Origin: an uncultured Clostridia bacterium
Lineage (GTDB): Bacteria > Bacillota > Clostridia > Christensenellales > Borkfalkiaceae
Reading direction: 5' to 3'
Length of the DNA stretch: 38,880 nucleotides
Assembly (NCBI GenBank): GCA_947626305.1
Contig: CANQRP010000005.1
Coordinates: forward strand, 1 to 38,880
The notes beneath the pieces were generated by a model. It saw only the letters and a program-made list of their open reading frames with translations, searched no databases and was not told the DNA's origin. Below, piece by piece: positions 5,081-38,880 of this stretch. Positions within the stretch are counted from its first letter, which is position 1. Every line of letters starts with the position of its first letter. The translations under genes were made by a program, and so were the position numbers.

Positions 5081-5083
5081 CTT

Positions 5084-6671: not shown

Positions 6672-6754
6672 GCGAAAACCGCGGTGTTTTTTCCGCAAAG
6701 CGATATCATGGCGAAAATATAAGCAACTCTTAACCTTTTCGAGCCCTCCGTTCC

Positions 6755-6783
6755 TTGACTTTTTCGACAAAATGTTATATACT
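6755..6783 (+). promoter_or_regulatory. Promoter for the giant lipoprotein gene
   Basis: TTGACT (6755-6760), a 17-bp spacer and TATACT (6778-6783) precede the gene. GGGAGG at 6815-6820 is the ribosome binding site for the ATG at 6826. Confidence 0.85.
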
Positions 6784-6825
6784 GACACAAATTTCCGTCC
6801 TATGGACGGAACACGGGAGGTAATC

Positions 6826-9800
6826 ATGAAAAAAGCACGGTTTTTCGTCGCACTTTTGTGTACGGTGCTTTGTTTCGGACTTCTGTCCTTTGCCGGCGCA
6901 TGCAAGTCGGGCGAGGACGGAAAAACGGCAACGCTCACGCTCTCGGCGGGCGAGGGCGGCACGCTGAAAAAAACGACTTACGAAATAGAGGTCGGCACCT
7001 CGATCGCAGAGCTCCTCAAAGGGATCGCGCCCGTTCCCGAGGAAGGGCTCACCTTCGCGGGTTGGTACAACGGGCAGAACCTTCTCGGCGAGGAGACCAT
7101 GCCCGCGGAGGGGTATTCCCTCACGGCGAAATATAACGCAACTTACACCGTGGAACTCTATCTCGAAGACGCGGAAGGCGCCTACGGTACGCCGGAGCGC
7201 ATTACGGGGAGCGCCCTTTACGGTGACGCGTTTACCTATACTCCCGCCCGCGAGCACTATCTGCCCGACGGGAGCAGGGAAAACAGACTCTCCTCGGAAA
7301 AACTCGGCAAAAACGAGACGTTCACCGCCTATCTCAAACGGGAGACATACGGCGTTCACTACTATGTCAACGGACCGCAGGAGGGATTCGGCGGCGTCCT
7401 GTTCCCCGCCACCGTCCGCTACGGCAATTCGCTCGCCCTGCCGGACGCGGAGGGGTTCACCCATCCCGATTGGTATCGTTTTGCTGGTTGGGCGACCTCG
7501 GCAGACGGTCCGCTCGCCTATCGGGCGGGAGAGACGGTCACTCCCGCGGGAGAAATGTTCCTCTACGCCGTTTGGGAAGAAGCGTTTTACGACCGCTTCG
7601 GCGGCGGAGATTTCCTCTTCTTCCCGCAGACGGAGCCGAACGTTGTCATTCTCCTGCGTGCGGGAGAGGAGCACCGCGGCAGTTGCGAAGGGGATACGTT
7701 CACCTTTGAAAACGACGGAAAAGAGGTGCTCAAAGGCAAGGTAAACCGCGCTGCGGGGACCTTTGTGTACTATCGCGAAGCGCTGAAAGACGTCGTATAC
7801 AAACATGCGGACGCCTATCGGGACGAACTGCATCAAGACGGCGCGACCCTCACATTCGACGGCTACGGCAGCGCCGATTACACGCTCGGCGGCACGACAA
7901 CGACGGGGGAGATCTCCTACGACCTCGACTCGATGCTCTACTCCTTTACGGCGGGCGACCTCAGGTTCAGCTTCCTTCTCACCGATCTTTCGGTAGGGGA
8001 TGAGAGCGAGCGGGTCTTCCTCTGCCCGGGTGCCGAAGCGGCGGCGGAATTCTATCCCTGCTTTGTGTTCTATTACGAGGAGGGAGAGAACAGATGGGAT
8101 GTGCAGGCATATTCTCCTCTGCTCTATTCCTTCGACGGCATGGGCACCGTGCTCGTGTATGCCATCTCCGCGACGCAGGATACCTACGCTCTCTACTATA
8201 TCGGGACCTATCTTCCCACGGACGACGGCATCCTCGAGATCATGCTTCTGGACGCAGAGGGCAATGTGCGCAACGTCCGCGGAAAACTTATCGAATATAA
8301 CGGTCAGCCCGTTTACCTCGAAGAGGACGGCTATGCCGGCACCTATTCGGCGGAGACGGGGGAAGAACTCACGCTCGACGGGTTCAGCGGCACCGAACAG
8401 AGCGCGGTCCTCACCGCGGCGGACGGTACGCGGAAGGAGGGGATGTATGTGCTCGAATCCTCCCCGCTCGGGACCTATCTTCGCTTTGCGGTAACGGGCG
8501 AGAAGGTCGCCACCTACCGTTTGGATCGGGAGGGAAAGCATTTCGAACTGCTCGGCGGCGAAGACTATGCGGAATATTATGTGTACTACGGCGCTTCGGG
8601 CGCCTCGCCGCTCGGCAATGCAACGCTCATCCTCGGCGAAGACAACACGGCGCTCTATTACCCCTCCGCGCAGGAGAGCGTAAGCGGAACGGTGACGAAA
8701 ACGGATGGGAAGGAGGGCTTCTTCCTGTTCACCGCAACGGACCGCTCCGTGATCTTCGAATTCGAGCTGTTCAGCGGCTTCTTCCCCTCGGGCATCTATA
8801 CCGAGTATTATCACTATTTCAAGCGCTACCCCACCCTTGCGTCCTCGGACGTCGAAAGTTACGAAACGGAGGACGGGGCTACCCTGTTGGTGCAGGAGGA
8901 CGGCGACGGCTTCGGCGACGCGATCTACACCGTCGGCACGCTTTCCCGCCTCGGCAGCTATATGCTCGCATCGGACGGGACGTTCTCCGGCATCGGCTTT
9001 GATTTTATCGAATTCATCGACATCAACACCGGCGATACCTTCTACTTCAAAGTGACGGGCGAAGGGAAGATCTCGCTCTTCGGGGGCGAGTCCGGATACT
9101 ATGCCCTCTACGACGGCGGAACGGTGGACCGCAGCTCCTTCCTGCTCCTGTTCTCGGACGACACGCCCGTTGCTTATTACAGCACGGAAGAGGGAGCGGT
9201 CACGGGCAGCTACACCTATTCGGCGACGACGGAGGAGGTTGTGCTGACCCATTCCGGAGGAAAACTTTCCTTCCTGCTCGTGACGGCGGAGGACGGCACG
9301 GCTTGCTTTGTGTGCCACACCGATCTTTGGAGCGGAACAAAAACTTTGAAAAGCGAAGACGGCAAGACGCTGCTCCTCGACGGCTACGGATTTGCCGACT
9401 ACGACGGGATCGGGATGCAGTACTATCTCTACGGAAGGCTGAACGAGGAGAACGCCTACCGCATCTATGCGTATGCCACGGCGGAAGAGGGGGTATACGA
9501 GGGATACTTCGATCTCTATCTCGGCAGCGATACCTTTACCGTCTGCGGCTATGAAGCGGGGCAGTACTATGCCGACGACACTTCGGGCGACGTCCTCTTC
9601 CTCGACGGCTACGGCAAGGTCGTCCGTTACAACATCGACCGCCGCGAGAGCGACGGAACCTCGCTCACCCCGCTCGAAGAGGGCGAATATGTCTTTGAAA
9701 ATACGGAGGAGGAGATCCTTCGCGTCACCCTCGGAGAGAGGAACTTCCGCATCCACATCTGGGGGAGTTACGACGGCGAGGACGTCTCCCTCTACTACAC

Positions 9801-12777
9801 CGTGGAATTCACGGCGGCGGGCACCTATGTGAGCGACGAATGGGAATATCTCTCCCTCGACTCCTACGGAGAAGCGCTCTTTACCGACCGGTACGGCGCC
9901 TCCTATGAGGGCAGTTATACGAAGATCTCGGAGCACGCCGTGAGCTTTACCGCAAGCGCATTCGACGAGGCACAGATCTTCGTACTCGGAGAGGAGAACA
10001 CCTTTACCCATCCCACGCAGGGCATGGTCGTCGACGGAGACACCCTCGTCAAATACCTCGGCGGCAGTGAAAGGGAGGTCCGCATTCCGTCCGGGGTGAA
10101 GAAGATCGCACCTCTCGCCTTCTCCCGTTTGGTTTACGGCGCCCTGTATGAGGGCGCGGCGATCGTCTCCGTCGATCTGAACGATACGGAGGAGATCGGT
10201 TCATACGCCTTCGACGGATGCGCCTTTCTGACGACGGTCAAGGGCGGGCATGTGAAAACGGTCGGCGCGTTCGCCTTCTACGCCTGCATCGAGCTCCGAA
10301 CGCTCGAGCTGCCCGTCGTATCGGAGATCGGCGAATTGGCATTCCACCTCTGCGAATCTCTCGGGAAAGTGGAACTTGCGCAGGCGAAAATTCTCTACTC
10401 CTCTGCGTTCAGCGGATGCTCCGGACTCGTTACGGTCGTGCTTCCCGCCGCCGAAAAACTGTACGAAGGCGTGTTCTACGACTGTCATGCGTTGAGATCG
10501 GTCACGCTCGGCGAGCACCTCGTCCAGCTCGGCACTCCCGAAGAGTCCGTTGCGGGCGTGTTTGCAAGGAGCAGTGCGCCGGCGCAGTCCTCGCTCAAAG
10601 TGACCTTGCTCGGGAGCACGGTCCCCGCGGTCGGTGCCGACCTCTTCGAAGGGGTGGAGACCTACACCGTCGTCGTGCCCGACATCTCCGCCGTCAAGCA
10701 ATTCTATCTCAGCGACGGCTGGGGCGCATACGATCGGAACCTCGGCTGCGAGAGCGGCTTCGACGGCACCTACTACCGTTACAGTTTTTCCGTCTCCGCG
10801 ATCGTTCTGAACGGCGTGATGAGGAGGGTCTATGGCAGTCTCGATCTGCACGGCGCATACGAAGTGCGGAACAACATCCTGTATCTTTTGCAGTACGACG
10901 CCTCCGCGGAGGGGCATTATCGGGAAAAGGCAATCGGCGTCTTCACCGAAGACGGAGCGCTCCTCTATAATGCATGGGGATACGAAATGGTGGAGGAGAA
11001 TTATAAGGACTTCGACAGGTACGTCAAAGCGGGAAAGGAAGTTACGATCAATCTGACCTACCCCGAGGACGCGGGCACCCTCGTCTTCACGCCCGCGGAG
11101 TACACCTCCTTCGCCGTGGGCGCCGTTTACGAAGTTCCCGGCGTCTGGACGAAGAGCGGGACGCCGAAAGAAGTCACCGTCTGTCTCTCTTACGACAGCT
11201 ACTTCTCCTCCACCCTCTACTTCCTTTCGGAGGGCGATCGCTACGGCATCTCCTCCGTCTCCTCGAGTGGAGACTCGTTGACCGCCTCTCTGGATGAGCC
11301 CGTCTTCAACCCCGTTGTCCGTGCTTACGCAGCGGACGACACGAGCCTCTTCGTCCTCTCGCAGAACGACCGCGACGGGACCGAATACACCGCATCGTTC
11401 GTGCTTGCGGGCATTGTCGACGATGACGGGCGAGCGATCAACGTAAAGCAGGCGCCCGTTACAAAGGATGCGGACGGTACGTTCACCACTGTAGACTCCC
11501 ATGTGTATGCGGGGTACAGCTATCGCATCACCTTCACGATCACGGGAGAGGAGAGCTTTACCTACTCCTTTGTGCGCGAACGGCGGATCGTCATCGATGC
11601 GGAGGACGGCTCGGCGCAGGTCATCCTCTCCCAAAGCGCCGCGGGCGAGGTGACGAGCGCTACCCTCTATGTGAGCGGCAGAGAGATCGGCAACGACATG
11701 GAGAACAAGGTCTATACCCAAGAGGACAACGTCTATTACTGGTTGGTTTACGAATATAACTACGCGGGCGAGTTCACTCTCACCCTCACGGGCGAGGGAG
11801 AAAACCTCACGGGGACTCTCGCCTGCGGCACGGTCGTCAAGGGATTCCTCGACGGCGTGTACGTCATCGCGTTCTTCCGCGGCGAGACCCGCACGGCGCT
11901 CTATATGCGTGGCGCGGACGAAGTGTACGGCAAGGTGGAGGACTCTTCCGTCACCGAGGAAGAGGGCTATTACACCGTCACATTCGAGGGGAACAAGTAC
12001 TACGTCACCTTCGACCTCGGGAGCAAATCGCTTACCATCGTCTTTGCGGACAGGACCTACCAAAGCGCCGATTGGGATGATGTGAAAGGGACTGTGCGCA
12101 TGGAACGGGATCCCGACGGCTCGATCAAGAGCATGACGCTCACCGTAGACGGGAAGGCGTATACAAATTACACCGAACATGGGGAAGAATACGATAAATA
12201 TTACATCTTTGCGGAGGGCGGGACCTTCTATTATGTGACGCTCGGTTCGAGCAGCTGTTCCATTTATCCGCTCGAAGAAAAAACGTATACCCATACGGCA
12301 ACGAATTTTGTGATCACTCTTCTCATCCGCGAAAACGGAACGATCGTGAGCGTTGTCTCCGCCACGTTCGGCGGCGAAGACGCAATGGAAAAAGTAGTTT
12401 ACGAATCCCGCACCATCGGCGGCGAAGATTATCTGCTCATCGTTTTGACGACGGAGGAGGGCGAAAAGCGTTATCTTGCGACAAGCGCAACCACCGCGAT
12501 CGACCTGCTCACCGAACAGGTCGTCGCCTCCGCGGATGGGAAATACCGCGTCACCGTGACCGTTACCGAAAGCGGAATCATTTACAAAGCCACGAAGTTC
12601 GAGATCGACAGCGGTACGGGACTCGAAGAGGTCCCGATCGACTGGTGCGGTTCCGCGCACAGTGAAGACGATGACCGCAACTACGAGATCGATGTGGGTT
12701 CCGACTTCTACTATTTCAACATTTCCAAACAGGGCGGCGAATGGACGCTGACCCTTGTGGAAATTATGCAGTGGTAA
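6826..12777 (+). CDS. Giant repeat lipoprotein (1983 aa) with InlB-like and BspA-type LRR regions
   Basis: An N-terminal lipoprotein signal peptide ends at FAGAC, with the Cys as the lipidation site. InlB/Listeria-Bacteroides-type beta modules follow (FAGWYNGQNLL near residue 78; FAGWATSADG near 220). The next ~800 residues contain degenerate beta-rich units marked by a recurring LxLDGYG motif (near residues 342, 516, 850, 925 and 1010). Residues about 1085-1240 hold five or six BspA-type leucine-rich repeats (for example IGSYAFDGCAFLTTV and VGAFAFYACIELRTL). The C-terminal 700 residues are Thr/Tyr/Glu-rich beta repeats without a membrane anchor. It is probably displayed at the cell surface through the lipid. 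An adhesion or substrate-binding role is inference. No enzymatic motif is seen. It ends at a strong bidirectional terminator. Confidence 0.88.
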   Translation: MKKARFFVALLCTVLCFGLLSFAGACKSGEDGKTATLTLSAGEGGTLKKTTYEIEVGTSIAELLKGIAPVPEEGLTFAGWYNGQNLLGEETMPAEGYSLTAKYNATYTVELYLEDAEGAYGTPERITGSALYGDAFTYTPAREHYLPDGSRENRLSSEKLGKNETFTAYLKRETYGVHYYVNGPQEGFGGVLFPATVRYGNSLALPDAEGFTHPDWYRFAGWATSADGPLAYRAGETVTPAGEMFLYAVWEEAFYDRFGGGDFLFFPQTEPNVVILLRAGEEHRGSCEGDTFTFENDGKEVLKGKVNRAAGTFVYYREALKDVVYKHADAYRDELHQDGATLTFDGYGSADYTLGGTTTTGEISYDLDSMLYSFTAGDLRFSFLLTDLSVGDESERVFLCPGAEAAAEFYPCFVFYYEEGENRWDVQAYSPLLYSFDGMGTVLVYAISATQDTYALYYIGTYLPTDDGILEIMLLDAEGNVRNVRGKLIEYNGQPVYLEEDGYAGTYSAETGEELTLDGFSGTEQSAVLTAADGTRKEGMYVLESSPLGTYLRFAVTGEKVATYRLDREGKHFELLGGEDYAEYYVYYGASGASPLGNATLILGEDNTALYYPSAQESVSGTVTKTDGKEGFFLFTATDRSVIFEFELFSGFFPSGIYTEYYHYFKRYPTLASSDVESYETEDGATLLVQEDGDGFGDAIYTVGTLSRLGSYMLASDGTFSGIGFDFIEFIDINTGDTFYFKVTGEGKISLFGGESGYYALYDGGTVDRSSFLLLFSDDTPVAYYSTEEGAVTGSYTYSATTEEVVLTHSGGKLSFLLVTAEDGTACFVCHTDLWSGTKTLKSEDGKTLLLDGYGFADYDGIGMQYYLYGRLNEENAYRIYAYATAEEGVYEGYFDLYLGSDTFTVCGYEAGQYYADDTSGDVLFLDGYGKVVRYNIDRRESDGTSLTPLEEGEYVFENTEEEILRVTLGERNFRIHIWGSYDGEDVSLYYTVEFTAAGTYVSDEWEYLSLDSYGEALFTDRYGASYEGSYTKISEHAVSFTASAFDEAQIFVLGEENTFTHPTQGMVVDGDTLVKYLGGSEREVRIPSGVKKIAPLAFSRLVYGALYEGAAIVSVDLNDTEEIGSYAFDGCAFLTTVKGGHVKTVGAFAFYACIELRTLELPVVSEIGELAFHLCESLGKVELAQAKILYSSAFSGCSGLVTVVLPAAEKLYEGVFYDCHALRSVTLGEHLVQLGTPEESVAGVFARSSAPAQSSLKVTLLGSTVPAVGADLFEGVETYTVVVPDISAVKQFYLSDGWGAYDRNLGCESGFDGTYYRYSFSVSAIVLNGVMRRVYGSLDLHGAYEVRNNILYLLQYDASAEGHYREKAIGVFTEDGALLYNAWGYEMVEENYKDFDRYVKAGKEVTINLTYPEDAGTLVFTPAEYTSFAVGAVYEVPGVWTKSGTPKEVTVCLSYDSYFSSTLYFLSEGDRYGISSVSSSGDSLTASLDEPVFNPVVRAYAADDTSLFVLSQNDRDGTEYTASFVLAGIVDDDGRAINVKQAPVTKDADGTFTTVDSHVYAGYSYRITFTITGEESFTYSFVRERRIVIDAEDGSAQVILSQSAAGEVTSATLYVSGREIGNDMENKVYTQEDNVYYWLVYEYNYAGEFTLTLTGEGENLTGTLACGTVVKGFLDGVYVIAFFRGETRTALYMRGADEVYGKVEDSSVTEEEGYYTVTFEGNKYYVTFDLGSKSLTIVFADRTYQSADWDDVKGTVRMERDPDGSIKSMTLTVDGKAYTNYTEHGEEYDKYYIFAEGGTFYYVTLGSSSCSIYPLEEKTYTHTATNFVITLLIRENGTIVSVVSATFGGEDAMEKVVYESRTIGGEDYLLIVLTTEEGEKRYLATSATTAIDLLTEQVVASADGKYRVTVTVTESGIIYKATKFEIDSGTGLEEVPIDWCGSAHSEDDDRNYEIDVGSDFYYFNISKQGGEWTLTLVEIMQW

Positions 12778-15263: not shown

Positions 15264-16076
15264 ATGGCGGTCGTTCAAAAGGGGGCGATCTCGTTCGGGC
15301 TCGTATATATTCCCGTCGGTCTATATACGGCGACGCAGGACAACGACATCGCATTCAATCAACTGCACAAGGCGGATAAATCGCGCATCCGCTACAAAAA
15401 GGTATGCGCCCACTGCGGAAAGGAAGTGGAAGCCAAAGACATCGTGCGCGGCTTCGAATATGCGAAAGACAGGTACGTGATCGTCACGGACGAAGAGATC
15501 GAGCGGCTCAAAACGGAAAAGGACCGCACCATCACCATCCTGAGCTTCACCGGGCTCGACGAGATCAGCCCCGTATATTACGACAGGGCGTATCACGTCG
15601 TGCCGCAAAAGGGGGGAGGCAAAGCGCTCGAACTGCTGCGGCAGGCGATGCTGCGCACACAGCGCGCCGCGCTCGGCAGAACGGTGCTCGGCAACAGCGA
15701 GCGGCTGCTCGTCATTCTTCCCCGTCGGGACGGGATGCTCTTGCAGACCCTGCTCTATCGGGACGACATCAAGGATATCCCCGTCGATTACGACCGTCCG
15801 CAGGTCTCGCAGGGGGAACTCGACATGGCGGAGCAGCTCATCCGCGGAATGGAGGAACCCTTTCAGCCCGAGAAATACCGCGATGAATTTCAGGAGAAGC
15901 TCAAAGCGCTCATCGCGGACAAGATCGCGGGGAAGCAGGTCGCGGTGCCGAAGGAGGAAAAGGCGGGCGCCGTGCTCGACCTCATGGAAGCATTGAAGGC
16001 GAGCGTGAAGAATGTGGGCGCGAAGAAGAGCCCCGCGGCGAAAAGACCGCGCACGGAGCGAAAAAAAGAGGCATAG
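15264..16076 (+). CDS. ku: Ku-family DNA end-binding protein
   Basis: The 270-residue product is a bacterial Ku homodimer subunit that binds double-strand break ends and recruits LigD. The N-terminus KGAISFGLVYIPVGLY is the family hallmark. A KVCAHCGKEV segment follows near residue 47. The Ku core runs to about residue 235, and the C-terminal tail is Lys/Arg/Ala-rich, as in other bacterial Ku proteins that contact DNA and ligase. The ATG at 15264 has GAGGGAG at 15254-15260. The gene is divergent from ligD with a 93-bp gap. The pair forms a self-contained two-gene repair unit. Confidence 0.95.
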   Translation: MAVVQKGAISFGLVYIPVGLYTATQDNDIAFNQLHKADKSRIRYKKVCAHCGKEVEAKDIVRGFEYAKDRYVIVTDEEIERLKTEKDRTITILSFTGLDEISPVYYDRAYHVVPQKGGGKALELLRQAMLRTQRAALGRTVLGNSERLLVILPRRDGMLLQTLLYRDDIKDIPVDYDRPQVSQGELDMAEQLIRGMEEPFQPEKYRDEFQEKLKALIADKIAGKQVAVPKEEKAGAVLDLMEALKASVKNVGAKKSPAAKRPRTERKKEA

Positions 16077-22830: not shown

Positions 22831-22945
22831 TGAAGAGTAGCCAAGGCGCGTTAAGTGTTGCGAAACGGGACGTTGTTCGCAAACGAAAGGGCGAAGAAAT
22901 CTTTCTCTCCGAGCCCTGCGGTGCCGCGGCGCGTCCGCTCGTCGG
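22831..22945 (+). promoter_or_regulatory. Tetrahydrofolate (THF) riboswitch aptamer
   Basis: Conserved THF-aptamer segments appear in order. GAGTAG is at 22835-22840 and GCGTTAAGTG at 22848-22857. A 7-bp helix TTGCGAA/TTCGCAA (22858-22864 and 22876-22882) follows, with GGGA in its loop. ACGAA comes next, then a GGGC/GCCC helix (22889-22892 and 22913-22916), then GGTG (22920-22923) and a final GTCCGCTC (22933-22940). This matches the known folT-associated THF class remembered from family examples. P1 pairing looks weak by eye. The next gene is a folate-type ECF S component, as expected. Confidence 0.85.
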
Positions 22946-23106: not shown

Positions 23107-23754
23107 ATGCAGGAAGTTACGACAAGACCCCTTTGGCAGCGCGCACTCTTTTCCCCGCTCATTCTGGAAAAATCGATTGCGCAAAAGATCGCCTACATCG
23201 GTATCGTCACGGCGCTTTGCATCGTTGTGAACACCTTCGAGATCAAGTTTTTGTCGGTGCAGTACTCCTTCACGCTGTTTATGTCCGTGCTTGCGGGCAT
23301 CCTCATCGGACCCATATTCGGTGCGGCGGCGGTATTGCTCGGCGACGGCATCGGCTACATCATCGGCGGCATGGGGTTTCCCTACTATTGGTGGGTGGCG
23401 CTCTCGGTCGCCGTGATGGCGATCGTCGCGGGGCTTGTGATGAAGCTCCCTCTCAAAATGCGCGGCAGCGTCTACGTAAAACTCACCCTCATCGTTGTCA
23501 TCACCTTTGCCGTCTGTTCGGTGGGGATCAACACCACGGGCATGTACTATCTCGGTCTGCCCCTCTACACCGACAGGAATGTGCTCGACGCCGCCATGAA
23601 ATACTTCGGTGGCACCCTCAACTTCGGCACCTATTTCGTCATCCGTTTCTTCATTCTTTTGCAGATCCTCAACAGCGTCGTCAACTATGCCCTGTTGTTT
23701 GTCGTGGTGCCGCTGCTCAAAGCGATCAAGCCGCTCAAACTCAAAATCGAGTGA
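23107..23754 (+). CDS. folT: Folate ECF transporter substrate-binding subunit FolT
   Basis: The 215-residue integral membrane protein has about six hydrophobic segments and belongs to the ECF S-component group. IAYIGIVTALCIVVNTFEIK starts the first helix, and GPIFGAAAVLLGDGIGYIIG is the conserved loop-helix region near residue 78. It would bind folate or a related pterin and work with shared energising subunits (EcfA, EcfA', EcfT) encoded elsewhere. Specificity for folate is inferred mainly from the THF riboswitch in its leader plus family resemblance. The ATG at 23107 uses the GGGAGG at 23092-23097 inside a hairpin. It appears monocistronic: a new promoter follows at 23781. Confidence 0.88.
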   Translation: MQEVTTRPLWQRALFSPLILEKSIAQKIAYIGIVTALCIVVNTFEIKFLSVQYSFTLFMSVLAGILIGPIFGAAAVLLGDGIGYIIGGMGFPYYWWVALSVAVMAIVAGLVMKLPLKMRGSVYVKLTLIVVITFAVCSVGINTTGMYYLGLPLYTDRNVLDAAMKYFGGTLNFGTYFVIRFFILLQILNSVVNYALLFVVVPLLKAIKPLKLKIE

Positions 23755-28976: not shown

Positions 28977-30287
28977 ATGATACCGTTAATTGCGATCGTC
29001 GGCAGACCGAACGTCGGCAAAAGCACCTTTTTCAACAAAGTCGCGGGGCGGAAAATTTCCATTACGGAAGACAGACCGGGCGTCACGCGCGACCGGATCT
29101 ACGTCACCGCCGAGTGGCGGGGCAAGCCGTTTACGCTCGTCGATACGGGCGGCATCGAACTCAAAAGCGAAGATGTGATGTGGAAACAGATCGCTCTCCA
29201 AGCGCAGCTCGCCGTTGAAACCGCAGATGTTATCCTCTTCTTTACGGACGGCAGAGAGGGACTCACGAGCTCCGATTACGATGTGGCGGATTACCTTCGC
29301 CGCAGCAAAAAGCCCGTGATCCTCGTCGTCAACAAGATCGACGATTATTCCCCCGACAAGGTGTTCGAATTTTATTCTCTCGGGCTAGGAGAGCCGTTTG
29401 CCGTGTCCTCGGAGCATTCCCGCGGCATCGGCGATGTGCTCGATAAAGCGGTGGAGTGGTTCGAAAAAGGGGAAACCGCCGAGGACGACCGTTTGAAGAT
29501 CGCCGTGGTGGGCAAGCCGAACGCGGGCAAGAGTTCGCTCGTCAACAAAATTCTGGGGCAGGAACGCACCATCGTCACCGACATCGCGGGGACCACGCGG
29601 GACGCGATCGATACCCCCTTTACGCGCGGAGAGAAGAAATATACCATCATCGATACGGCGGGCATCCGCCGAAAGCGCTCCGTCGAAGACGATGTGGAGT
29701 ACTATTCGGTGCTCCGCGCCTTCGACGCCATCCGCCGCGCGGACGTGGTGCTCCTCGTCGTCGATTGCAGCGTCGGACTCACCGAGCAGGATGTACGGAT
29801 CATCGGGCAGGTCCACGAAGAGGGCAAACCCTCCGTCATCGTCATGAATAAGTGGGATACCATCGAAAAAGATACCCATACCATTCAAAAGTTTGAAGAA
29901 AAACTCAAAGAGGACCTCAAATTCATGGACTATTACAAGTCCGTATACATTTCGGCAAAGACGGGGCAACGGGTGGAAAAGTTGCTCGACCTCGCCGAAG
30001 AGGTCTATGCCCATGCGAGTTTCCGTGTGCCGACGGGCGCGCTCAACGACCTGTTGATGGACGCCATGCGCGTCTCCGAGCCGCCGAGCTACCTTGGCAG
30101 GCGGATGAAGCTCTACTATGCTTCGCAGGCGTCGGTCCGACCGCCGCTCTTCGTGCTCATGGTCAACGACGAAAAGCTGTTGCACTTCTCCTATGCGCGG
30201 TATCTCGAAAACGTCATTCGCGAAGCGTACGATTTTTCGGGTACGCCCATCCGCATCAAAGTGCGCAGCAACAAGGAGGAAACGTGA
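28977..30287 (+). CDS. der: GTPase Der (EngA), ribosome assembly factor
   Basis: The 436-residue protein has two tandem GTPase domains and a C-terminal KH-like domain, the unique Der layout, and is needed for 50S subunit assembly. The first domain has GRPNVGKST (9-17), VDTGG and NKIDD; the second has GKPNAGKSS, IDTAGIRRK and NKWD. The ATG at 28977 begins MIPLIAIVG; the frame is open 27 codons upstream, but those codons lie within the promoter and have no ribosome site. The mRNA is probably leaderless. The stop overlaps the plsY start by one base (TGATG), the usual der-plsY coupling. Confidence 0.96.
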   Translation: MIPLIAIVGRPNVGKSTFFNKVAGRKISITEDRPGVTRDRIYVTAEWRGKPFTLVDTGGIELKSEDVMWKQIALQAQLAVETADVILFFTDGREGLTSSDYDVADYLRRSKKPVILVVNKIDDYSPDKVFEFYSLGLGEPFAVSSEHSRGIGDVLDKAVEWFEKGETAEDDRLKIAVVGKPNAGKSSLVNKILGQERTIVTDIAGTTRDAIDTPFTRGEKKYTIIDTAGIRRKRSVEDDVEYYSVLRAFDAIRRADVVLLVVDCSVGLTEQDVRIIGQVHEEGKPSVIVMNKWDTIEKDTHTIQKFEEKLKEDLKFMDYYKSVYISAKTGQRVEKLLDLAEEVYAHASFRVPTGALNDLLMDAMRVSEPPSYLGRRMKLYYASQASVRPPLFVLMVNDEKLLHFSYARYLENVIREAYDFSGTPIRIKVRSNKEET

Positions 30288-31177
30288 TGCCGCTCCTCTC
30301 CGCAGCCATGACGGGCGCGCTGTCCGCTTCCGCAGTTAGAACAGGCGCGCTGTCCGCCCCCTCTGTCATCTCGAGCGCGCTGCCTGCCCCCTCTGTCATC
30401 TCGAGCGCAGGCGCAGCCGCAGTCGCAGCCGCAGTCGAGAGATCTCTCGCCTTTTCCGAGCTATGGTATTGGTTCCTTCTCATGGCGGTAGTGTGCTATT
30501 TCATCGGCTGTTTCAACTTTGCCGTGCTTATCGCGCGGTTCAAACACAAGGATGTGCACAAGATCGGCAGCGGGAACCCGGGCACGATGAACATTTCCCG
30601 CGAGTTCGGGTTGAAAGTGGGGCTTGTGAACTTTCTGCTCGACGCCTGCAAGGGGGGGATCCCTGCGCTCATCAGCTATTTCGTTTTCCGCAGCTATGTG
30701 TTTGCGGGCACCAACGTCGTGATCTCCGACTTTACACGCTATTTCTGCGGCGTCTGCGTCATCATCGGGCACATCTGGCCCGTGACGATGAAATTCAAAG
30801 GCGGAAAGGGCATTGCTTCCACCTTGGGGTTGTTTTGGTTTTGTATTTCCTGCGAAACATGGTGGTACTTTTTCATCATGTTTGCGCTGTTGCTCTTCGG
30901 TGTTGTGGGGTACATCGCCTATACCGAGTGGGGGAGCATGGGCTCGCTGCTCGGCGTAACGGGGTTTTCCGTTTGGCAGGGGCTGATGTTCTTTTTCCGC
31001 TACGAGGCGGAGATCGCAAACGGCTGGGTGATCGCCTGCTTTATGATGCTTCTCGCGCTGAATGTTCTCACGTGGTTTGCGCACCGCAAGAACCTCGTGC
31101 GGCTCTACGCGGGCGAGGAACACCGCACCTCGGTGCGAAAGCTCTCCCACGGCAAGAGAGGGATGAAAAATATGTAA
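30287..31177 (+). CDS. plsY: Glycerol-3-phosphate acyltransferase PlsY with repeat-derived N-terminal extension
   Basis: The 296-residue membrane enzyme acylates glycerol-3-phosphate from acyl-phosphate, the first step of phospholipid synthesis. Conserved sites are GSGNPGTMNISREFG (about 95), a GHIWPVTMKFKGGKGIAS stretch (about 160-177), and the family helices. The normal PlsY start corresponds to about residue 60 (YWFLLMAVVCYFIGCFNFAV). The extra N-terminus is low-complexity Ala/Ser/Val sequence built of 10-residue units (TGALSASAVR, TGALSAPSVI, SSALPAPSVI). Only the ATG at 30287 has a ribosome site (GGAGGA, 30275-30280); the internal Met has none. So the extension is probably translated. 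The gene is coupled to der. A gpsA gene, often next in this cluster, is absent. Confidence 0.9.
   Translation: MPLLSAAMTGALSASAVRTGALSAPSVISSALPAPSVISSAGAAAVAAAVERSLAFSELWYWFLLMAVVCYFIGCFNFAVLIARFKHKDVHKIGSGNPGTMNISREFGLKVGLVNFLLDACKGGIPALISYFVFRSYVFAGTNVVISDFTRYFCGVCVIIGHIWPVTMKFKGGKGIASTLGLFWFCISCETWWYFFIMFALLLFGVVGYIAYTEWGSMGSLLGVTGFSVWQGLMFFFRYEAEIANGWVIACFMMLLALNVLTWFAHRKNLVRLYAGEEHRTSVRKLSHGKRGMKNM
30311..30440 (+). repeat. In-frame 30-bp tandem repeats at the 5' end of plsY
   Basis: GCGCGCTG recurs at 30315, 30345 and 30375 (period 30 bp). The block CCCCCTCTGTCATCTCGAG occurs twice (about 30357-30375 and 30387-30405). The downstream end, CAGTCGAGAGATC (30432-30443), is complementary in part to ATCTCGA, giving an interspersed-repeat-like inverted structure. 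Confidence 0.85.
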
Positions 31178-31983: not shown

Positions 31984-32895
31984 ATGGAAGAAACGCAAAA
32001 ACAACAGAATCAGCTCGTTCGCTTTCTCCTCGACATTCTGCGTGGGGTGGCGATCGGAGTGGCGTTCATCATCCCGGGTTTTTCGGGCGGGTCGGTCGCG
32101 GCGATCCTCGGCGTGTACGAAAAACTCGTCGGGGCGATCGCCGACTTTTTCAAACACTTCAAGTCGAGCTTTCTCACCCTGCTTCCCATTGTTTTGGGAA
32201 TGCTCCTCGGCATTGCCGCGCTCATTCTGCCCATCCAATGGGGGCTGAAACACTACCCCATGCCCACCGTTACGCTGTTCGTGGGGCTGGCGCTCGGCGG
32301 GCTTCCCTCCGTTGTCGATAAAATGAAGGGACCTGAGAGACCCTCGTGGAAACATCTCCTTGCCTGTGCGCTCCCGCTTGCCTTAGCGGCGTCGCTCTGT
32401 TTTCTTCCCCTCGGGCGGGAAGTCGACCTCTTTCACCTCGACTTCGGCGGGTATCTCCTGCTCGTGCTCGTCGGGATCGCGGGTTCGGCGGCGCTCGTCG
32501 TGCCGGGCATCTCGGGCTCCATGCTCCTGCTCATCTTCGGCTATTATAACCCCGTGGTGCGGCTCATCACCGAGCATCTGTTGCACGGGCAGCAGGTGGG
32601 AATTTGCCTTCTCGTGCTCGCCTGTCTTGCGGTGGGGCTCGTCATCGGCTTCTTCGGCATCTCCGTGGTGATGAAATTTCTCTTGAACAAATTCCCCCGC
32701 GGCACTTATTTTGCGATCTTCGGATTCATCATCGGCAGTGTTCCCGCGGTGTACGCGTCGGTCATTCGCGAAACGGGTCGCATTTTGTTCTCGAACCCGT
32801 GGTATTGGGTCGTTGCCGCCCTGTTGCTTTTCGTCGGCTTCGCGCTTTCCTTTTCTCTCGTTTTTTGGCAGAAAAAAGCGCGGCAAAAATCATAG
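31984..32895 (+). CDS. popT: DUF368 family protein, probable polyprenyl-phosphate transporter
   Basis: The 303-residue protein has eight or more hydrophobic segments and two inverted copies of a PG(F/I)SG motif: IIPGFSGGSVAAILGVY (about 29) and VVPGISGSMLLLIFGYY (about 170). This is the DUF368 signature. DUF368 proteins (PopT) have been reported to recycle undecaprenyl phosphate across the membrane for cell-wall synthesis; the assignment here rests on the family. The ATG at 31984 has no ribosome binding site, and a poor -10-like AATAAT (31970-31975) lies just upstream, so a leaderless or very short leader is possible. RidA follows closely and may be co-transcribed. Confidence 0.88.
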   Translation: MEETQKQQNQLVRFLLDILRGVAIGVAFIIPGFSGGSVAAILGVYEKLVGAIADFFKHFKSSFLTLLPIVLGMLLGIAALILPIQWGLKHYPMPTVTLFVGLALGGLPSVVDKMKGPERPSWKHLLACALPLALAASLCFLPLGREVDLFHLDFGGYLLLVLVGIAGSAALVVPGISGSMLLLIFGYYNPVVRLITEHLLHGQQVGICLLVLACLAVGLVIGFFGISVVMKFLLNKFPRGTYFAIFGFIIGSVPAVYASVIRETGRILFSNPWYWVVAALLLFVGFALSFSLVFWQKKARQKS

Positions 32896-33285: not shown

Positions 33286-33367
33286 TGCGCCGCCCGCGCC
33301 GCAAGAATTGCGGCGCGGGCGGCGCAGTCCGTAAAAGCGAAAAAAGGCGGAGCATTCCGCCTTTTTT
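33286..33367. terminator. Tandem hairpins, second one a bidirectional terminator
   Basis: Hairpin one is a 19-bp perfect stem (33286-33304 with 33308-33326, GAA loop) lacking a T run. Hairpin two, AAAAAAGGCGGA (33340-33351) with TCCGCCTTTTTT (33356-33367) and loop GCAT, is a symmetric terminator serving ridA and the minus-strand fusion gene. Confidence 0.9.
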
Positions 33368-33380
33368 GTCTGTCTTCCGC

Positions 33381-35960
33381 TTATTTCAGAAAGAGGCGCA
33401 CGAGCCGTTCCCAAATTTTCTTGTACGGCTGATAGCGCATCGGCAAGTCGAACCACGTCTTTTTGTCCACGATGCTCTTGTTGTGCGAAAAGCAGTCGAA
33501 CCCGTCTTTGCCGTGGTAGCTGCCCATGCCGCTCTCTCCCACTCCGCCGAACCCCATGTTCGAGGTGGCAAGGTGGATCACGACGTCGTTCACGCACCCG
33601 CCGCCGAAGGCAATGCGGGAGGTGAAGGTGCGAATTTGTTGCTTATCCGAGGAGAAGAGGTAGCACGCGAGCGGAGAATTTCCCGCATTGATCTTTGCGA
33701 TCACCGCTTCGTCGTCCTCATAGAGGAGCACGGGCAGCAGAGGTCCGAAAATTTCCTCTTGCATCACGGCGTCCTCATACGACACGTTCCGCAAGACCGT
33801 AGGCTCTATGCGGAGCGTCATTTCGTCCCTCTTTCCGCCGCAGTAAATTTTCTCGCCGTCCATGAGCGCGGAGAGGCGCGCAAAGTGTTTTTCATTGACG
33901 ATCTTTCCGTAATCGGGATTTTTCAGCGGCTCCTTCCCGAACTGTTTTTCGATCTGTTTTTTGAGTTCCGGAAGCAATTTATACGCGATGTCTCTGTGGG
34001 CGAGGATGTAGTCGGGCGCAACGCAGGTCTGCCCGCAGTTGAGGAATTTTCCGAACACAATGCGCTTTGCCGCAAGGGGGATGTCGGCGCTCTTTGCCAC
34101 GATGCAGGGGGATTTCCCGCCGAGTTCCAACGTGACGGGAATGAGTTTTTCCGCCGCCCGCCGCATGACCTCCTTGCCGACCGCCATGCTTCCCGTAAAG
34201 AAAATTTTGTCGAAGGCAAGGTCGAGGAGCCGAGCATTCTCTGCCCGCCCGCCGAGCACCACATAGACGAGTTCGGGCGGAAAGGTCTCTTCCATGATTT
34301 TTTTGAGAAGGGCACCCGTCGCGGGGGAATATGCCGAGGGTTTCAGGATGACGGTATTCCCCGCGGCGAGCGCGTCCGCGAGAGGCTCGGCGGTGAGAAG
34401 GAAGGGGTAGTTCCACGGGCTCATGACGAGCACATTGCCGTAGGGCGACGGTTTGACATAACTCCGCGCGGGGAATTGCGCCAGAGGCGTCTTTACACGT
34501 CGCTCGCGCGAAAAGCGTTTCAGATGTTTGAGCTGATAGGTGATCTCGGAGAGGGTAAGCCCCGTCTCGCACATATAGCTCTCCGCGTTCCCCTTGCCGA
34601 GGTCGGCTTTGAGTGCGGCGTGAATTTCCGCTTCGTGCGCCGAAATCGCCGCTTTGAGCTTGCGGAGCGCGCGGACCCTGCTTTTTACGGGGAGGGTGAG
34701 CCCGCTCGCGAAGTAGTCTTGCTGTAATTTCAGCGTTTCTTCGGCGGAACCGCCGTACTGCGTGCGGGCGGCGCGGAAGAGTTCCGCAAGGGCGTCGGCA
34801 TCCATGAGCCTCGGCACGGGGTAAAGGGGATTTGCCTCCCTGTCCGCATTTTTCGCGAGACGGGGAATATCCTTTTCCCACACTTCAAGGGAGGAGGGAA
34901 TGCCCATTTCGGCGTTCAGCGTCTCCACCCATTTTATCATTTCCTCCGCGCAGCGCGCATCCTCTTTTTCGTTGCACACGCCGCTTTTGCGGGCGAGCGA
35001 GGCGAGCCTTTTCCGGCAGGACTTGCCGTAGCGTCTGAGCACGATGGGGAGGAGGGTGGCGTTCGTTCTGCCGTGGGGGTAGTTATAGGCTCCGCCGAGC
35101 GCGTGTGCCGCGGCGTGCACGTAGCCGACGTACGATACGGTAAAAGCAAGCCCCGCTTCGAAGGCGGCGAGCTGCATGTCCTTGCGGGCAGCCATGTCCT
35201 CGCCGTTCCGGTAGGCGGTAAGCAGAGAATGATTGATGCGCTTTACGGCGCTTATGGAAAGTTTTCTCGTACGGCGGGTGGTCGAACACCCGATGTATGT
35301 CTCCATCGCATGAGTGAGGGCGTCGAGCCCCGTCTCCGCCGTGGGCGCAGGCGGCAGGGTCTTCGTCATCACGGGGTCCAGAAGGGCGTACTTCGGTGCG
35401 AGGCAGAAGGAGAGGATCGTAAACTTGAAATGAGTCTTGTCGTCGGTGACGACCGCGGCGATCGTCGCTTCGCTGCCCGTTCCGGAAGTCGTCGGCACGG
35501 CGAGGAAGAAGGGCTGTCTTCCCATCACTTTGAGAATGCCCTTCATTTGCAACAGGCTCTTTTTCGGCTTTATCAGCCGCGCGCACACTCCCTTGGCGCA
35601 GTCGATGGGGGAGCCGCCCCCTACGGCGACGAGGAGATCGCACTGCTTTTCGCGATAGCGCGCGAGCGCGCTCTCGATCGCCGAAACGGTGGGATTTGCG
35701 GGGGTCTCGTCGAAGATTTCGCAGGCAATGTTCTGCGCCGCGAACGCCTCTTCGAGCGGCTTGGTCAACCCGCAGGCGTTTACCCCCTTATCCGTCACGA
35801 TGAGCGCACGTTTGCCCTTGGTCTTTGCAAGCGCCGCCGCTTCCCGACAGCTGCCGATCAGTTGCGGGGTGCGGTAGGGCATGAGCGGGATCGCAATGCG
35901 GAATACCGTCTGAAAGAGTCTGCACCATACGGCACGGAAAAAATTCATCCGAGATTTCAT
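33381..35960 (-). CDS. Iron-containing alcohol dehydrogenase fused to class 3-like aldehyde dehydrogenase
   Basis: The 859-residue protein joins two complete oxidoreductases. Residues 25-405 are a Fe-ADH domain: GGGSPIDCAKG (114-124), TTSGTGSEAT (157-166), and metal ligands D213, H217 (GLDALTHAME), H282 (YVHAAAHALGG) and H296 (PHGRTN). Residues 410-859 are an ALDH of the ALDH3 kind: SPWNYPF (N517), FFTGS, LELGGKSP (E612) and NCGQTCVAPDY with catalytic C646. The order is the reverse of AdhE, whose acylating ALDH is N-terminal, and this ALDH is of the acid-forming type by family. It could oxidise an alcohol to an acid with channelling, or dismutate aldehyde. The ATG at 35960 has AGAGGT upstream. 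Confidence 0.92.
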   Translation of the reverse strand: MKSRMNFFRAVWCRLFQTVFRIAIPLMPYRTPQLIGSCREAAALAKTKGKRALIVTDKGVNACGLTKPLEEAFAAQNIACEIFDETPANPTVSAIESALARYREKQCDLLVAVGGGSPIDCAKGVCARLIKPKKSLLQMKGILKVMGRQPFFLAVPTTSGTGSEATIAAVVTDDKTHFKFTILSFCLAPKYALLDPVMTKTLPPAPTAETGLDALTHAMETYIGCSTTRRTRKLSISAVKRINHSLLTAYRNGEDMAARKDMQLAAFEAGLAFTVSYVGYVHAAAHALGGAYNYPHGRTNATLLPIVLRRYGKSCRKRLASLARKSGVCNEKEDARCAEEMIKWVETLNAEMGIPSSLEVWEKDIPRLAKNADREANPLYPVPRLMDADALAELFRAARTQYGGSAEETLKLQQDYFASGLTLPVKSRVRALRKLKAAISAHEAEIHAALKADLGKGNAESYMCETGLTLSEITYQLKHLKRFSRERRVKTPLAQFPARSYVKPSPYGNVLVMSPWNYPFLLTAEPLADALAAGNTVILKPSAYSPATGALLKKIMEETFPPELVYVVLGGRAENARLLDLAFDKIFFTGSMAVGKEVMRRAAEKLIPVTLELGGKSPCIVAKSADIPLAAKRIVFGKFLNCGQTCVAPDYILAHRDIAYKLLPELKKQIEKQFGKEPLKNPDYGKIVNEKHFARLSALMDGEKIYCGGKRDEMTLRIEPTVLRNVSYEDAVMQEEIFGPLLPVLLYEDDEAVIAKINAGNSPLACYLFSSDKQQIRTFTSRIAFGGGCVNDVVIHLATSNMGFGGVGESGMGSYHGKDGFDCFSHNKSIVDKKTWFDLPMRYQPYKKIWERLVRLFLK

Positions 35961-35984
35961 AATTTACCTCTTTTTTATGAGGAT

Positions 35985-36013
35985 ATTATAGGACGCACGG
36001 CGGCGAAAGTCAA
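35985..36013 (-). promoter_or_regulatory. Promoter of the ADH-ALDH fusion gene
   Basis: On the minus strand TTGACT (36013-36008), a 17-bp spacer and TATAAT (35990-35985). Transcript start near 35978, 18 nt before the start codon. Confidence 0.9.
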
Positions 36014-36060
36014 CCGATTTAATTCATTTTGTGAACAGAAAACCTTCTTTTTTGTAAATT

Positions 36061-36140
36061 GAGCAAAATGCGGGTCGGGCGCAAAATCGGGCATTTGAGA
36101 GCAAAATATGAAAATTTTTGCCGATTTCGGCGAAAAATGA
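36061..36140. other. AT-rich divergent control region with iterated GCAAAAT and an inverted repeat
   Basis: The 347-bp gap between the fusion gene and the RpiR-type gene holds no gene. Three direct GCAAAAT repeats start at 36063, 36081 and 36101 (about two helical turns apart). An inverted repeat, ATTTTTGCCGA with TCGGC-G-AAAAAT (36114-36138), follows. These are candidate regulator sites; nothing else stands out between 36140 and 36220. Confidence 0.45.
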
Positions 36141-36220
36141 AAAAATTTATCCTCTTTTTTCTCCAATGTTTGAAGCGATTTTGCAAAAAAAAGGAAACTT
36201 ATGCAATAAATCGAGAATGC

Positions 36221-36249
36221 TTGACAAAGGAATTCAGACATCTTACAAT
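36221..36249 (+). promoter_or_regulatory. Promoter of the RpiR-type regulator gene
   Basis: TTGACA (36221-36226), a 17-bp spacer and TACAAT (36244-36249), giving a leader of about 52 nt. Confidence 0.85.
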
Positions 36250-36307
36250 GGAGGCAAATTTTGTCCGCAACCGAAAAAAAGAATGCGGGAGCATATGGAG
36301 GTTTGAT

Positions 36308-37141
36308 ATGCCGGATAGCATCGGGGGCAGACCGATCACTGTTCGCAGGGAAGATCTGACAAAAAGTCAAAAGAAGTTGCTCGACTTCTTCACTAAAACC
36401 GATCGTCAGGGTCTCGCTTTAATGACCATTACCGATCTTGCCAACGAAGCGGGGGTCGCCGAGTCGACCGTGTTGCGCTTTTGCCGTGTACTCGGCTACA
36501 ACGGATACCATGAATTCCGTCTCAACCTCGCCCAGGGGGACTCCGGGCTCGAAGCGCGCATAAGGAGCGAGGGGCTGGAATACGCGGAGAGCATTGCGGA
36601 CGCATACGAAACGGCAATGATCAATTGCCGCAAGATACTCACGCGCGAACGGTTGCAGGCGGTGTACAACATGATCTTCGAAGCCGAGGCGGTATGCTGC
36701 TTCGGTCTGGGATACTCCTATCTTGCGGCGCTGGAAATGCACAACCGTCTCATGACGATGGGGATCCTCACTTATTGCGAGCAGGATCCGCATTTGCAAA
36801 ACGTGCTCATTTCTTCGCGCAGCGAAAAGGACTTGCTCATCATTTTCAGTGTGTCGGGCAGCACCAAGGATACGGTGGAGGCGGCGGAACTTGCGCGCGC
36901 CTGCGGCATGAAGGTGCTCGTCATCACCTGCGGCGAAAAGTCTCCGCTTACGCAGTTTGCGGACCTCGTGCTCGCCGTTCCGCCCGTGGGAAAGGGGTCC
37001 CGCCCCGGGGACATGACGGGGAAGGTCTCACAGCTGTTTTTGGCGGATGTGATCTGTACGGGCATCCATCTGTCCGACAAATCCCGGTTCGACGGTTTTG
37101 TGGCGCGCAGCAGCCGCGCTACCGTAAGTAAACTCATCTGA
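36308..37141 (+). CDS. MurR/RpiR family transcriptional regulator
   Basis: The 277-residue protein has an N-terminal HTH_6 domain (about 15-80; MTITDLANEAGVAESTVLRF is the helix-turn-helix) and a C-terminal SIS sugar-phosphate-binding domain (about 115-255; FGLGYSYLAALEMHNRLM and IIFSVSGSTKDTVEAAELAR). Such regulators sense phosphosugars. I chose the ATG at 36308 because GGAGG lies at 36297-36301; the frame stays open 83 codons upstream, through the promoter. It is divergent from the ADH-ALDH fusion, which makes that gene a candidate target, although RpiR proteins usually control sugar catabolism. A strong terminator follows. Confidence 0.92.
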   Translation: MPDSIGGRPITVRREDLTKSQKKLLDFFTKTDRQGLALMTITDLANEAGVAESTVLRFCRVLGYNGYHEFRLNLAQGDSGLEARIRSEGLEYAESIADAYETAMINCRKILTRERLQAVYNMIFEAEAVCCFGLGYSYLAALEMHNRLMTMGILTYCEQDPHLQNVLISSRSEKDLLIIFSVSGSTKDTVEAAELARACGMKVLVITCGEKSPLTQFADLVLAVPPVGKGSRPGDMTGKVSQLFLADVICTGIHLSDKSRFDGFVARSSRATVSKLI

Positions 37142-37908: not shown

Positions 37909-38880
37909 TTACTTACGGCGCTTGCTCACAACGATCGCCGTCGGGATGCAGATCGCCGCCGCACCGCAAACGGTGAGCACCGCGATCAGGATCCACATTC
38001 CGCCCGCCGGTTCCGTCTCGCCGAGGCTTGCGGCGGAGTCGACCGCGAGTTCATGACCCGAAAGCGCAGTGCCGCCCGTGACGGAGGGAACTTCCTCGGC
38101 GTCGGTGCGGTTCGTAAGGTCGGGAACGAAATTCGTCTTGGGAGCTTCGGGTTCCGCGGGCATTTCGGAAAGTTCGGGGACCTCGGGTTCCGCGGGCACT
38201 TCGGGGAGTTTGGGAGCGGGAAGTTCGGTTCTGTTTTCCTCCGATTCCCCGCACACGGTGCAGGAGCGGGAGGAGATCTCATAGCCCTCTTCGGTCCTCG
38301 TCTCCCATTCGCTCCATGCGTGGAGCGCGGGGTCGGCGGGAAGCATCTCGCTCTCGAGGAGTTCGCCGCAGACGGAGCAATAGGTGTTCACTACGCCGTT
38401 TGTGATGCAGTCGGGCGCAACTTCCGTCAAGGGCTCCGCGGCGATATGTCCCTTCGCTTCTTCGAAGACTTCCTTTACGGTGTCGCCGCAGACGGAGCAG
38501 ACGCTCTCGGAGTAGCCCTGTTCGGTGCAGGTCGCTTCATGCTCGGTGACAACGTAGCTGTGCCCGAGTGCGGGAACGGAAACGGTCTCTTTGCATTCGC
38601 CGCAGACCGAGCAGACGACGGACTTTCTGCCCTCTTTCGTGCAGGTGGGGGCTTCGTCGAGTTGTTCGCCCCACACATGTCCGAGTGCGTCGAGGCTGCC
38701 TTCGGTCTCTACCGTGCCGCAGGTGTTGCAGGTCTTTACGGTATAGACCGCGCCGTTGCAACCCTTCTGCGTCTTTACGTCGAAATCGTGTCCCTTTGCT
38801 TCGGAGAGGACTTTTCTCACGGTGTCGCCGCAGACGGAGCAGACGCTCTCGGAGTAGCCCTGTTCGGTGCAGGTCGCCTC
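37909..38880 (-). CDS. Cys-repeat surface protein, 5' end outside the window
   Basis: The reading frame runs off the right edge (323 residues visible, no real start; an in-frame GTG at 38820 lies inside a repeat). It holds repeated modules of the form GH...ATCTxxGyxxxxCSVCG, each with a CxxC pair: TCTEQGYSESVCSVCGDTV appears twice, 114 residues apart, with variants in between (TCTKEGRKSVVCSVCGE, CITNGVVNTYCSVCGE). A Pro/Glu-rich linker (PAEPEVPELSEMPAEPEAP) leads to a single membrane helix and KRRK end, so the repeats are outside the cell with a C-terminal membrane anchor rather than LPXTG. The function is unknown. Similar Cys-pair repeats are common in large clostridial surface proteins. Confidence 0.85.
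   Translation of the reverse strand, partial: EATCTEQGYSESVCSVCGDTVRKVLSEAKGHDFDVKTQKGCNGAVYTVKTCNTCGTVETEGSLDALGHVWGEQLDEAPTCTKEGRKSVVCSVCGECKETVSVPALGHSYVVTEHEATCTEQGYSESVCSVCGDTVKEVFEEAKGHIAAEPLTEVAPDCITNGVVNTYCSVCGELLESEMLPADPALHAWSEWETRTEEGYEISSRSCTVCGESEENRTELPAPKLPEVPAEPEVPELSEMPAEPEAPKTNFVPDLTNRTDAEEVPSVTGGTALSGHELAVDSAASLGETEPAGGMWILIAVLTVCGAAAICIPTAIVVSKRRK

Follow-up and report, generated by a model that had tools for sequence, protein, structure and literature searches.

We analyzed a 38,880-nucleotide stretch of DNA from an uncultured Clostridia bacterium (contig CANQRP010000005.1 of assembly GCA_947626305.1; hereafter the window) and found that it contains an intact open reading frame (ORF) for a protein in which an N-terminal iron-type alcohol dehydrogenase (Fe-ADH, or simply ADH) is joined to a C-terminal class 3 aldehyde dehydrogenase (ALDH). 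We favor the view, with a probability of roughly 60%, that this protein represents a two-enzyme module that clears hydrophobic aldehydes of lipid origin, probably fatty ones, by turning them into alcohol and acid. What points to long-chain aldehydes derived from lipids is a feature absent from the original prediction made for this DNA, namely a lysoplasmalogenase-like membrane domain of the YhhN family that is carried by proteins related to that of the window. (The window is contig 5 of 127 in an assembly that totals 1.54 Mb and is estimated to be 74% complete.)

Domain architecture and catalytic residues of the fusion protein

Searches with Pfam placed a Fe-ADH domain at residues 36-196 (PF00465, 141.9 bits), an ADH_Fe_C domain at residues 207-398 (PF25137, 144.7 bits) and an Aldedh domain at residues 422-830 (303.1 bits), each with a score far above the curated cut-off. 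These matches bear out the original prediction of a complete Fe-ADH followed by a complete ALDH, in an order opposite to that of AdhE. The three ALDH residues that had been singled out (N517, E612 and C646) are correct and, together with E736, D213, H217, H282 and H296, are invariant in all 15 of the fused proteins that were aligned. Thus, the window ALDH has the catalytic Cys, Glu and Asn in addition to the ALDH fold, and its ADH partner has the Asp-His-His-His metal-ligand set of the group III Fe-ADHs (D213, H217, H282 and H296). (The metal-ligand and NAD roles that we assign to residues of the ADH are presumed from the FucO family.)

When compared to sequences in the PDB, the ALDH scored 308-427 bits against Staphylococcus aureus AldH and entries named ALDH3, FALDH or class 3; a steroid ALDH came next at 244 bits, and other classes reached 168 bits at most. 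By sequence, the window ALDH is a class 3 enzyme, as had been proposed originally, being more similar to this class than to the others. Its best PDB relatives are S. aureus AldH, ALDH3A1 and human FALDH, with 39-44% identity, and the solved relatives include FALDH (4qgk) and ALDH3A1 with octanal (8bb8). The S. aureus enzyme (6k0z, 6k10) and other class 3 ALDHs differ from the window protein in being single-domain. The nearest solved relatives of the ADH half are the group III enzymes methanol dehydrogenase (from Bacillus), Zymomonas Adh2, 1,3-propanediol oxidoreductase and FucO. Unlike the window protein, these are not fused to an ALDH, and the window ADH has in addition an N-terminal extension of ~20 residues with a predicted helix. 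This helix (residues 7-26) was modeled with a predicted local distance difference test score (pLDDT) of about 50-64 and has a hydrophobic moment of up to ~0.55, which is not the highest in the protein; it may contact the membrane. The N-terminal segment is common to the other aligned fused proteins, except for the distant fusion at locus L169, whose row was trimmed there. At the other end of the protein, we liken the C-terminal tail, by position only, to the gatekeeper region of FALDH.

The fusion is not a reversed AdhE

AdhE resembles the window protein in that an ALDH and a Fe-ADH are present in one polypeptide of similar length. However, in AdhE an N-terminal acylating ALDH precedes a C-terminal Fe-ADH, whereas the window protein has the reverse order and an ALDH of class 3. 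Moreover, the window protein obtains only 238.5 bits with the AdhE model NF010378, the cut-off of which is 951, whereas L003, a true AdhE encoded at another place in this genome, reaches 1362 bits. We therefore reject the idea of a reversed AdhE, given the low model score, the class of the ALDH and the fact that the genome has a true AdhE. The same results bear on the suggestion that the protein is a fermentation enzyme for small substrates such as lactaldehyde, propionaldehyde or ethanol, a functional mirror of AdhE that works without coenzyme A. Although the nearest solved relatives of the ADH half are in line with such a role, we consider it quite improbable given the class of the ALDH, the poor AdhE score, the AdhE that the genome already has and a set of scanned neighbors (a polyprenyl-phosphate transporter, RidA, an RpiR-family regulator and rubrerythrin) that is not a fermentation operon.

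ADH and ALDH are recurrently adjacent or fused

A family search at 1e-100 with the window protein as query yielded matches in 65 of 201 genomes, and a class search at the same threshold with a YhhN-ADH-ALDH triple fusion as query yielded matches in 95 of 391 genomes; in each case many of the matches were to ALDH alone. We classified 83 loci (53 + 30), 62 of which have the ADH above a chosen score threshold. These 62 comprise 30 loci with separate adjacent ADH and ALDH genes, eight ADH-ALDH fusions (including those of the window and of L169), seven triple fusions, ten loci with a YhhN-ADH fusion and a separate ALDH gene, one with YhhN-ADH and no ALDH nearby, five with ADH alone and one (L119) with a fusion that is cut by the contig end. 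At the same thresholds the remaining 21 of the 83 loci have ALDH only (L043 and L115, whose ADH pieces fall below threshold, were counted as ALDH alone). Where the two enzymes are encoded separately, both genes share a strand and ADH is upstream in 40 of 40 pairs, and the matched ALDH domain starts less than 26 nt past the ADH stop codon in 33 of the 40, although only strand and order are informative here, the pairs having been retrieved for the proximity of their matches.

Thirteen of the 14 other aligned fused proteins share 53-80% identity with the window protein, and that of L169 shares 34%. The most similar protein among the named records (L037, 80% identity) comes from a metagenome-assembled genome (MAG) of a rabbit-gut ('Lapin') Clostridia bacterium. 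Because single-frame fusions occur in other genomes, one of them 80% identical and in a separate MAG, chance and misassembly can be excluded, and with them the assembly chimera of two separate genes against which the original prediction had cautioned. (Note that rows L035 and L036 are near copies, as are L039 and L044, that loci from different collections may repeat a species, and that L170 and L171 are from one genome.) The original prediction had also tentatively considered the architecture to be non-standard. Consistent with this, there was no description of Fe-ADH-ALDH or YhhN-ADH fusions among the matches listed from open-access full-text literature, a scope that leaves out subscription journals and domain databases.

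In a tree of 54 concatenated rows made by a quick method (L043, L119 and L151, with broken or cut genes, were excluded), the window protein clusters with L037, L080, L081 and L082 and with the triple fusions L083 and L084 (Shimodaira-Hasegawa-like approximate likelihood ratio support of 96), and this group sits within a larger set that is rich in YhhN-ADH fusions. If the long-branched L169 is left off the tree, the ADH-ALDH fusion requires three changes, and if it is kept, four; the YhhN-ADH fusion requires eight. These counts do not separate gain from loss. A single clade of the 14 fused rows other than L169, a group named post hoc, was rejected by the approximately unbiased test (p = 7.7e-42). 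Repeated fusion of a tandem ADH/ALDH pair is the simplest reading of these results, and it is likely that YhhN was lost in the clade of the window.

A lysoplasmalogenase-like domain is joined to the ADH at related loci

At 18 of the 62 ADH-bearing loci a YhhN domain, as found in the YhhN and TMEM86 lysoplasmalogenases, lies N-terminal to the ADH and in frame with it; the window protein differs from these relatives in being without one. In the family search, 15 of 48 YhhN matches (counted by hand) were in one frame with this ADH, and six of the seven in-frame upstream extensions that were tested proved to be YhhN by Pfam (PF07947, 68.5-85.3 bits against a cut-off of 25.6). According to parts of a study of TMEM86A and TMEM86B, eight residues were mutated and all were crucial but one glycine, which is G81 of TMEM86A and G87 of TMEM86B (PMC11994398). 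The counterparts of these eight residues (K, G, D, H, G, S, D and Y, which are K32, G73, D74, H96, G176, S183, D184 and Y207 in L088) are invariant in all seven triple fusions and, when the alignment was read by eye, were also kept in four added YhhN-ADH domains. They were mapped to TMEM86 positions by motif and spacing rather than by an alignment with TMEM86; the spacing equals that of TMEM86 within the blocks that run from G-D to H and from G-S-D to Y, and the K is three residues further away than in TMEM86A. E. coli YhhN, which was included in the alignment, carries Asn in place of the second Asp and is not aligned at the position of the K. In the L088 fusion, eight membrane helices are predicted within residues 2-223 (block pLDDT 63-87); with eight helices, the two ends of the YhhN domain would face the same side of the membrane. 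(A search by sequence found no solved structure related to the YhhN domain.)

YhhN enzymes free fatty aldehyde from lysoplasmalogen, and passages of the same source suggest that their products exit to the cytosol (PMC9052158). Moreover, the laboratory assay for YhhN is described, in parts of two reports, as being coupled to an added alcohol dehydrogenase (PMC9052158, PMC11994398), and by analogy the YhhN-ADH fusion in these genomes may do something similar. The ADH follows directly after YhhN in these fusions, so that reduction could be the first step, as might be expected if the module served to produce fatty alcohol deliberately, for instance for use in ether lipids or storage lipids, with the ALDH handling overflow. 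We regard such a role as highly improbable; in the relevant part of a review, bacterial plasmalogen synthesis is said to have used long-chain aldehydes, not long-chain alcohols (PMC9702350). (In a term search of the text of this review, the words lysoplasmalogenase, turnover, catabolism and degradation were absent.)

Plasmalogen-synthesis genes

Plasmalogens have been known from anaerobic bacteria for sixty years, and the genes for their synthesis were found recently. In the genome of the window, a PlsA-like gene is overlapped by an ORF downstream of it, for which the only match is to DUF2229 and below the cut-off. The two appear to be arranged like the plsA-plsR operon, as described in part of the literature (PMC12838417). 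At the family level, a PlsA-like DUF2229 gene was found in 34 of the 35 genomes that have the ADH (threshold 1e-100) and in 74 of the remaining 166, a comparison that was made from hand-entered lists, ignores kinship and counts G108 (a fusion cut by the contig end) as ALDH alone. DUF2229 is not specific, however, and among 14 control genomes it matches those of Thermus composti and Deinobacterium chartae.

Evidence that weighs against a lipid-derived substrate

Several observations count against our favored reading. There is no fused YhhN at 44 of the 62 ADH-bearing loci, no YhhN match in the genome of the window as assembled (an estimated 74% complete), and none was found in the ADH-ALDH relatives G165, G170, G175 and G190 (in another such relative, G159, YhhN is present as a separate gene). 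The ADH-ALDH form therefore works without an attached lysoplasmalogenase. With respect to plasmalogen synthesis, the PlsA-like gene is present in 28 of 29 genomes of the genus of the window (g1), shows no enrichment at the class level (12 of 20 ADH genomes and 249 of 391 genomes overall, compared by hand), and is absent from the YhhN-ADH genomes G483 and G500. Plasmalogen synthesis was dropped as proof of function because the family-level association vanishes at the class level. (YhhN-ADH genomes without a PlsA-like gene might use outside lipids by analogy with Mycobacterium tuberculosis, which makes no plasmalogens and for which such use has been proposed, according to part of the source; PMC9052158.)

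The protein itself supplies further points of this kind. Residue 543 is Ala (KPSA) in place of the Glu (KPSE) of 6k0z and 8bb8. The ribose-binding Glu of KPSE is a cofactor feature and does not define the class. Judging by this position, Ala543 may favor NADP, a mismatch with an NAD-type ADH, and the replacement weakens the case for the simple, closed recycling of NAD that had been envisaged originally. In addition, residues 786-859 of the window protein were too poorly predicted for a channel between the two active sites to be judged, and the soluble part of the triple-fusion model is weak (pLDDT 61.5, predicted template modeling score 0.36); with models of moderate or poor confidence, no ADH-ALDH channel can be claimed.

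Finally, among NCBIfam models the ALDH scores best with that of the benzaldehyde dehydrogenase MdlD, although its 394 bits are below the cut-off of 550. This match would suit a broad role in the detoxification of general or aromatic aldehydes with no tie to lipids, in which the fusion merely joins two general dehydrogenases, as would the presence of a benzaldehyde dehydrogenase (5ucd) among the structural matches, the 21 of 83 loci that have the ALDH without this ADH and the failure to detect YhhN in the genome of the window. However, the 360-427 bits obtained with S. aureus AldH, ALDH3A1 and FALDH exceed the 311 bits obtained with 5ucd, and the ADH carries a fused lysoplasmalogenase-like domain at 18 loci. 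We therefore consider this explanation rather unlikely and continue to favor clearance of lipid-derived aldehydes.

Gene neighborhood and other features

The features of the fusion gene and its surroundings are listed in Table 1. With a promoter-like site and a ribosome-binding-like GAGG on its 5' side, which also support the start codon, and two hairpins before the converging RidA gene, the fusion gene looks like a single-gene transcription unit. Note that the promoter and terminator calls are consensus matches whose numbers are near those of shuffled sequence (the region has two promoter-like sites, compared to an average of 1.4 after shuffling, and seven terminator-like sites, compared to an average of 5.0). 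A homologue of the divergent RpiR-family regulator adjoins the module at just one of 79 loci searched (L080), so that a regulatory link between RpiR and the fusion would be conjecture; RpiR was rejected as a conserved regulator of the module.

Table 1 Features of the fusion gene and its surroundings in the window
Feature	Position	Strand	Basis or remark
Coding sequence, Fe-ADH / class 3 ALDH fusion	33381..35960	-	859 residues, ATG start
Predicted amphipathic N-terminal helix before the ADH, residues 7-26	35883..35942	-	Structure model
Fe-ADH domain, residues 36-398; D213, H217, H282, H296; D57	34767..35855	-	Pfam, alignment
Junction, residues 399-421	34698..34766	-	ALDH structure matches start at ~403-405
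Class 3 ALDH domain, residues 422-830 (Pfam range); N517, E612, C646, E736	33471..34697	-	
C-terminal tail, residues 831-859, basic amphipathic segment at its end	33384..33470	-	Model pLDDT <50
Promoter-like site, TTGACT-17-TATAAT	35985..36013	-	11 of 12 consensus matches, 5' of the fusion ATG
GAGG, ribosome-binding-like	35967..35970	-	6 nt 5' of the fusion ATG, sequence reading
Terminator-like hairpin, 19 pairs	33286..33326	-	Downstream of the fusion gene
Second terminator-like hairpin (given on the + strand)	33340..33367	.	Between the fusion gene and the converging RidA gene
Divergent RpiR-family regulator ORF (HTH_6 + SIS)	36059..37141	+	Domain matches

The neighboring polyprenyl-phosphate transporter (PopT-like, of the VCA0040-like family; 31984-32895, + strand) has homologues at eight of 79 relative loci (L037, L082, L083, L084, L094, L110, L111 and L112), and a PlsY-type glycerol-3-phosphate acyltransferase is encoded ~2 kb from the fusion (30284-31177, + strand). 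Other features of the window include a tetrahydrofolate riboswitch (Rfam RF01831, 60.8 bits; 22831-22941, + strand) that lies 5' of the gene for the S component of an energy-coupling factor transporter (23107-23754), and a Ku-type DNA end-binding protein (15264-16076, + strand, 178 bits) in what is a gut anaerobe with a small genome. An ORF of 2145 codons (6340-12777, + strand) encodes BspA-type leucine-rich and Listeria-Bacteroides repeats; the opposite strand has two long open frames (1078 and 1367 codons) with no Pfam match. Toward the end of the window, a protein with CxxCG-like repeats, a stretch rich in proline and a hydrophobic segment at its C-terminus (37909-38820, - strand) likewise has no Pfam match, and direct repeats of 92 nt with 89% identity are located at 38447-38538 and 38789-38880.

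Individual relative loci have features of their own. The distant fusion of L169 (2623-5277, genome G380), which belongs to another family of the class and has a very long branch, is perhaps a separate fusion event. L040 (1-5984) is an ADH and ALDH pair on a contig of 5,984 bases from a MAG labeled Treponema, where it may have arrived by transfer or mis-binning. In L044 a gene of the choloylglycine hydrolase / acyl-amide hydrolase family (4743-5981) is directly 5' of the ADH-ALDH pair. MarR-like ORFs are found upstream of the module in L088 (1950-2399), L090 (1436-1972), L045 (4608-5150) and L164 (2452-2931); the first three score above the Pfam cut-off and that of L164 below it, none of those three reaches the cut-off of an NCBIfam model, and those of L090 and L164 overlap by a few bases with the start of the following gene. 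A long upstream open frame in L005 (genome G175) was considered as an extra N-terminal domain and rejected, since Pfam finds no YhhN in it; an RpiR homologue lies on the opposite strand.

Discussion

The fusion that was observed originally is confirmed, and the original interpretation of it is supported in part. Our results show the domains, the conservation of the catalytic residues, the fusions and the order of the genes, whereas substrate, direction, cofactors, membrane contact and channelling are inferred. In the scheme that we favor, the N-terminal Fe-ADH would interconvert aldehyde and alcohol, probably with NAD(H), and the C-terminal class 3 ALDH would use C646 and standard ALDH chemistry to oxidize aldehyde to carboxylic acid. 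Joined together, the two enzymes would clear toxic aldehyde to alcohol and acid, or would take alcohol to acid by way of a held aldehyde. Conversion of alcohol to acid and dismutation of an aldehyde, the two activities put forward in the original prediction, are thus both possible for the window protein, and a closed dismutase, an alcohol-to-acid line and two independent arms are all possible modes of action. In some relatives the source of the aldehyde would be covalently attached, with the eight-helix YhhN domain cleaving lysoplasmalogen and passing fatty aldehyde to the cytosolic enzymes. Because YhhN is neither part of the window protein nor found in its genome, the aldehyde of the window protein must come from elsewhere, for example from plasmalogen breakdown or from leakage during plasmalogen synthesis.

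FALDH carries a C-terminal membrane anchor. The window ALDH is 40% identical to FALDH (ALDH3A2; 4qgk) and, like it, is combined with an alcohol-oxidizing partner; the partners are separate in the FALDH complex, whereas the window protein has an iron-type bacterial ADH on the same chain. In mammals, as described in part of one source, the fatty alcohol:NAD oxidoreductase complex consists of a class 3 ALDH and an alcohol-oxidizing partner (PMC10028308). We think that the window protein may, by analogy, work like this oxidoreductase with its FALDH, without thereby necessarily being a member of the FALDH family.

More tentatively, and at somewhat less than even odds, gut and rumen Clostridia may have placed the whole disposal line for the vinyl-ether chain of plasmalogens on one polypeptide (YhhN, Fe-ADH and ALDH). 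The window protein would then be the soluble end of this line that is left after loss of the membrane domain, and the aldehyde that it now clears would have a different origin, for instance what leaks from plasmalogen synthesis.

These findings give annotators a reason not to label such fused proteins AdhE, and they describe a compact fused enzyme that is directly assayable. The repeated fusion of a lysoplasmalogenase-like domain to aldehyde enzymes is a concrete, testable candidate for the fate of the fatty aldehyde. If the more tentative reading of a disposal line on one polypeptide is correct, these bacteria would have a dedicated route for plasmalogen turnover with a built-in aldehyde dismutase.

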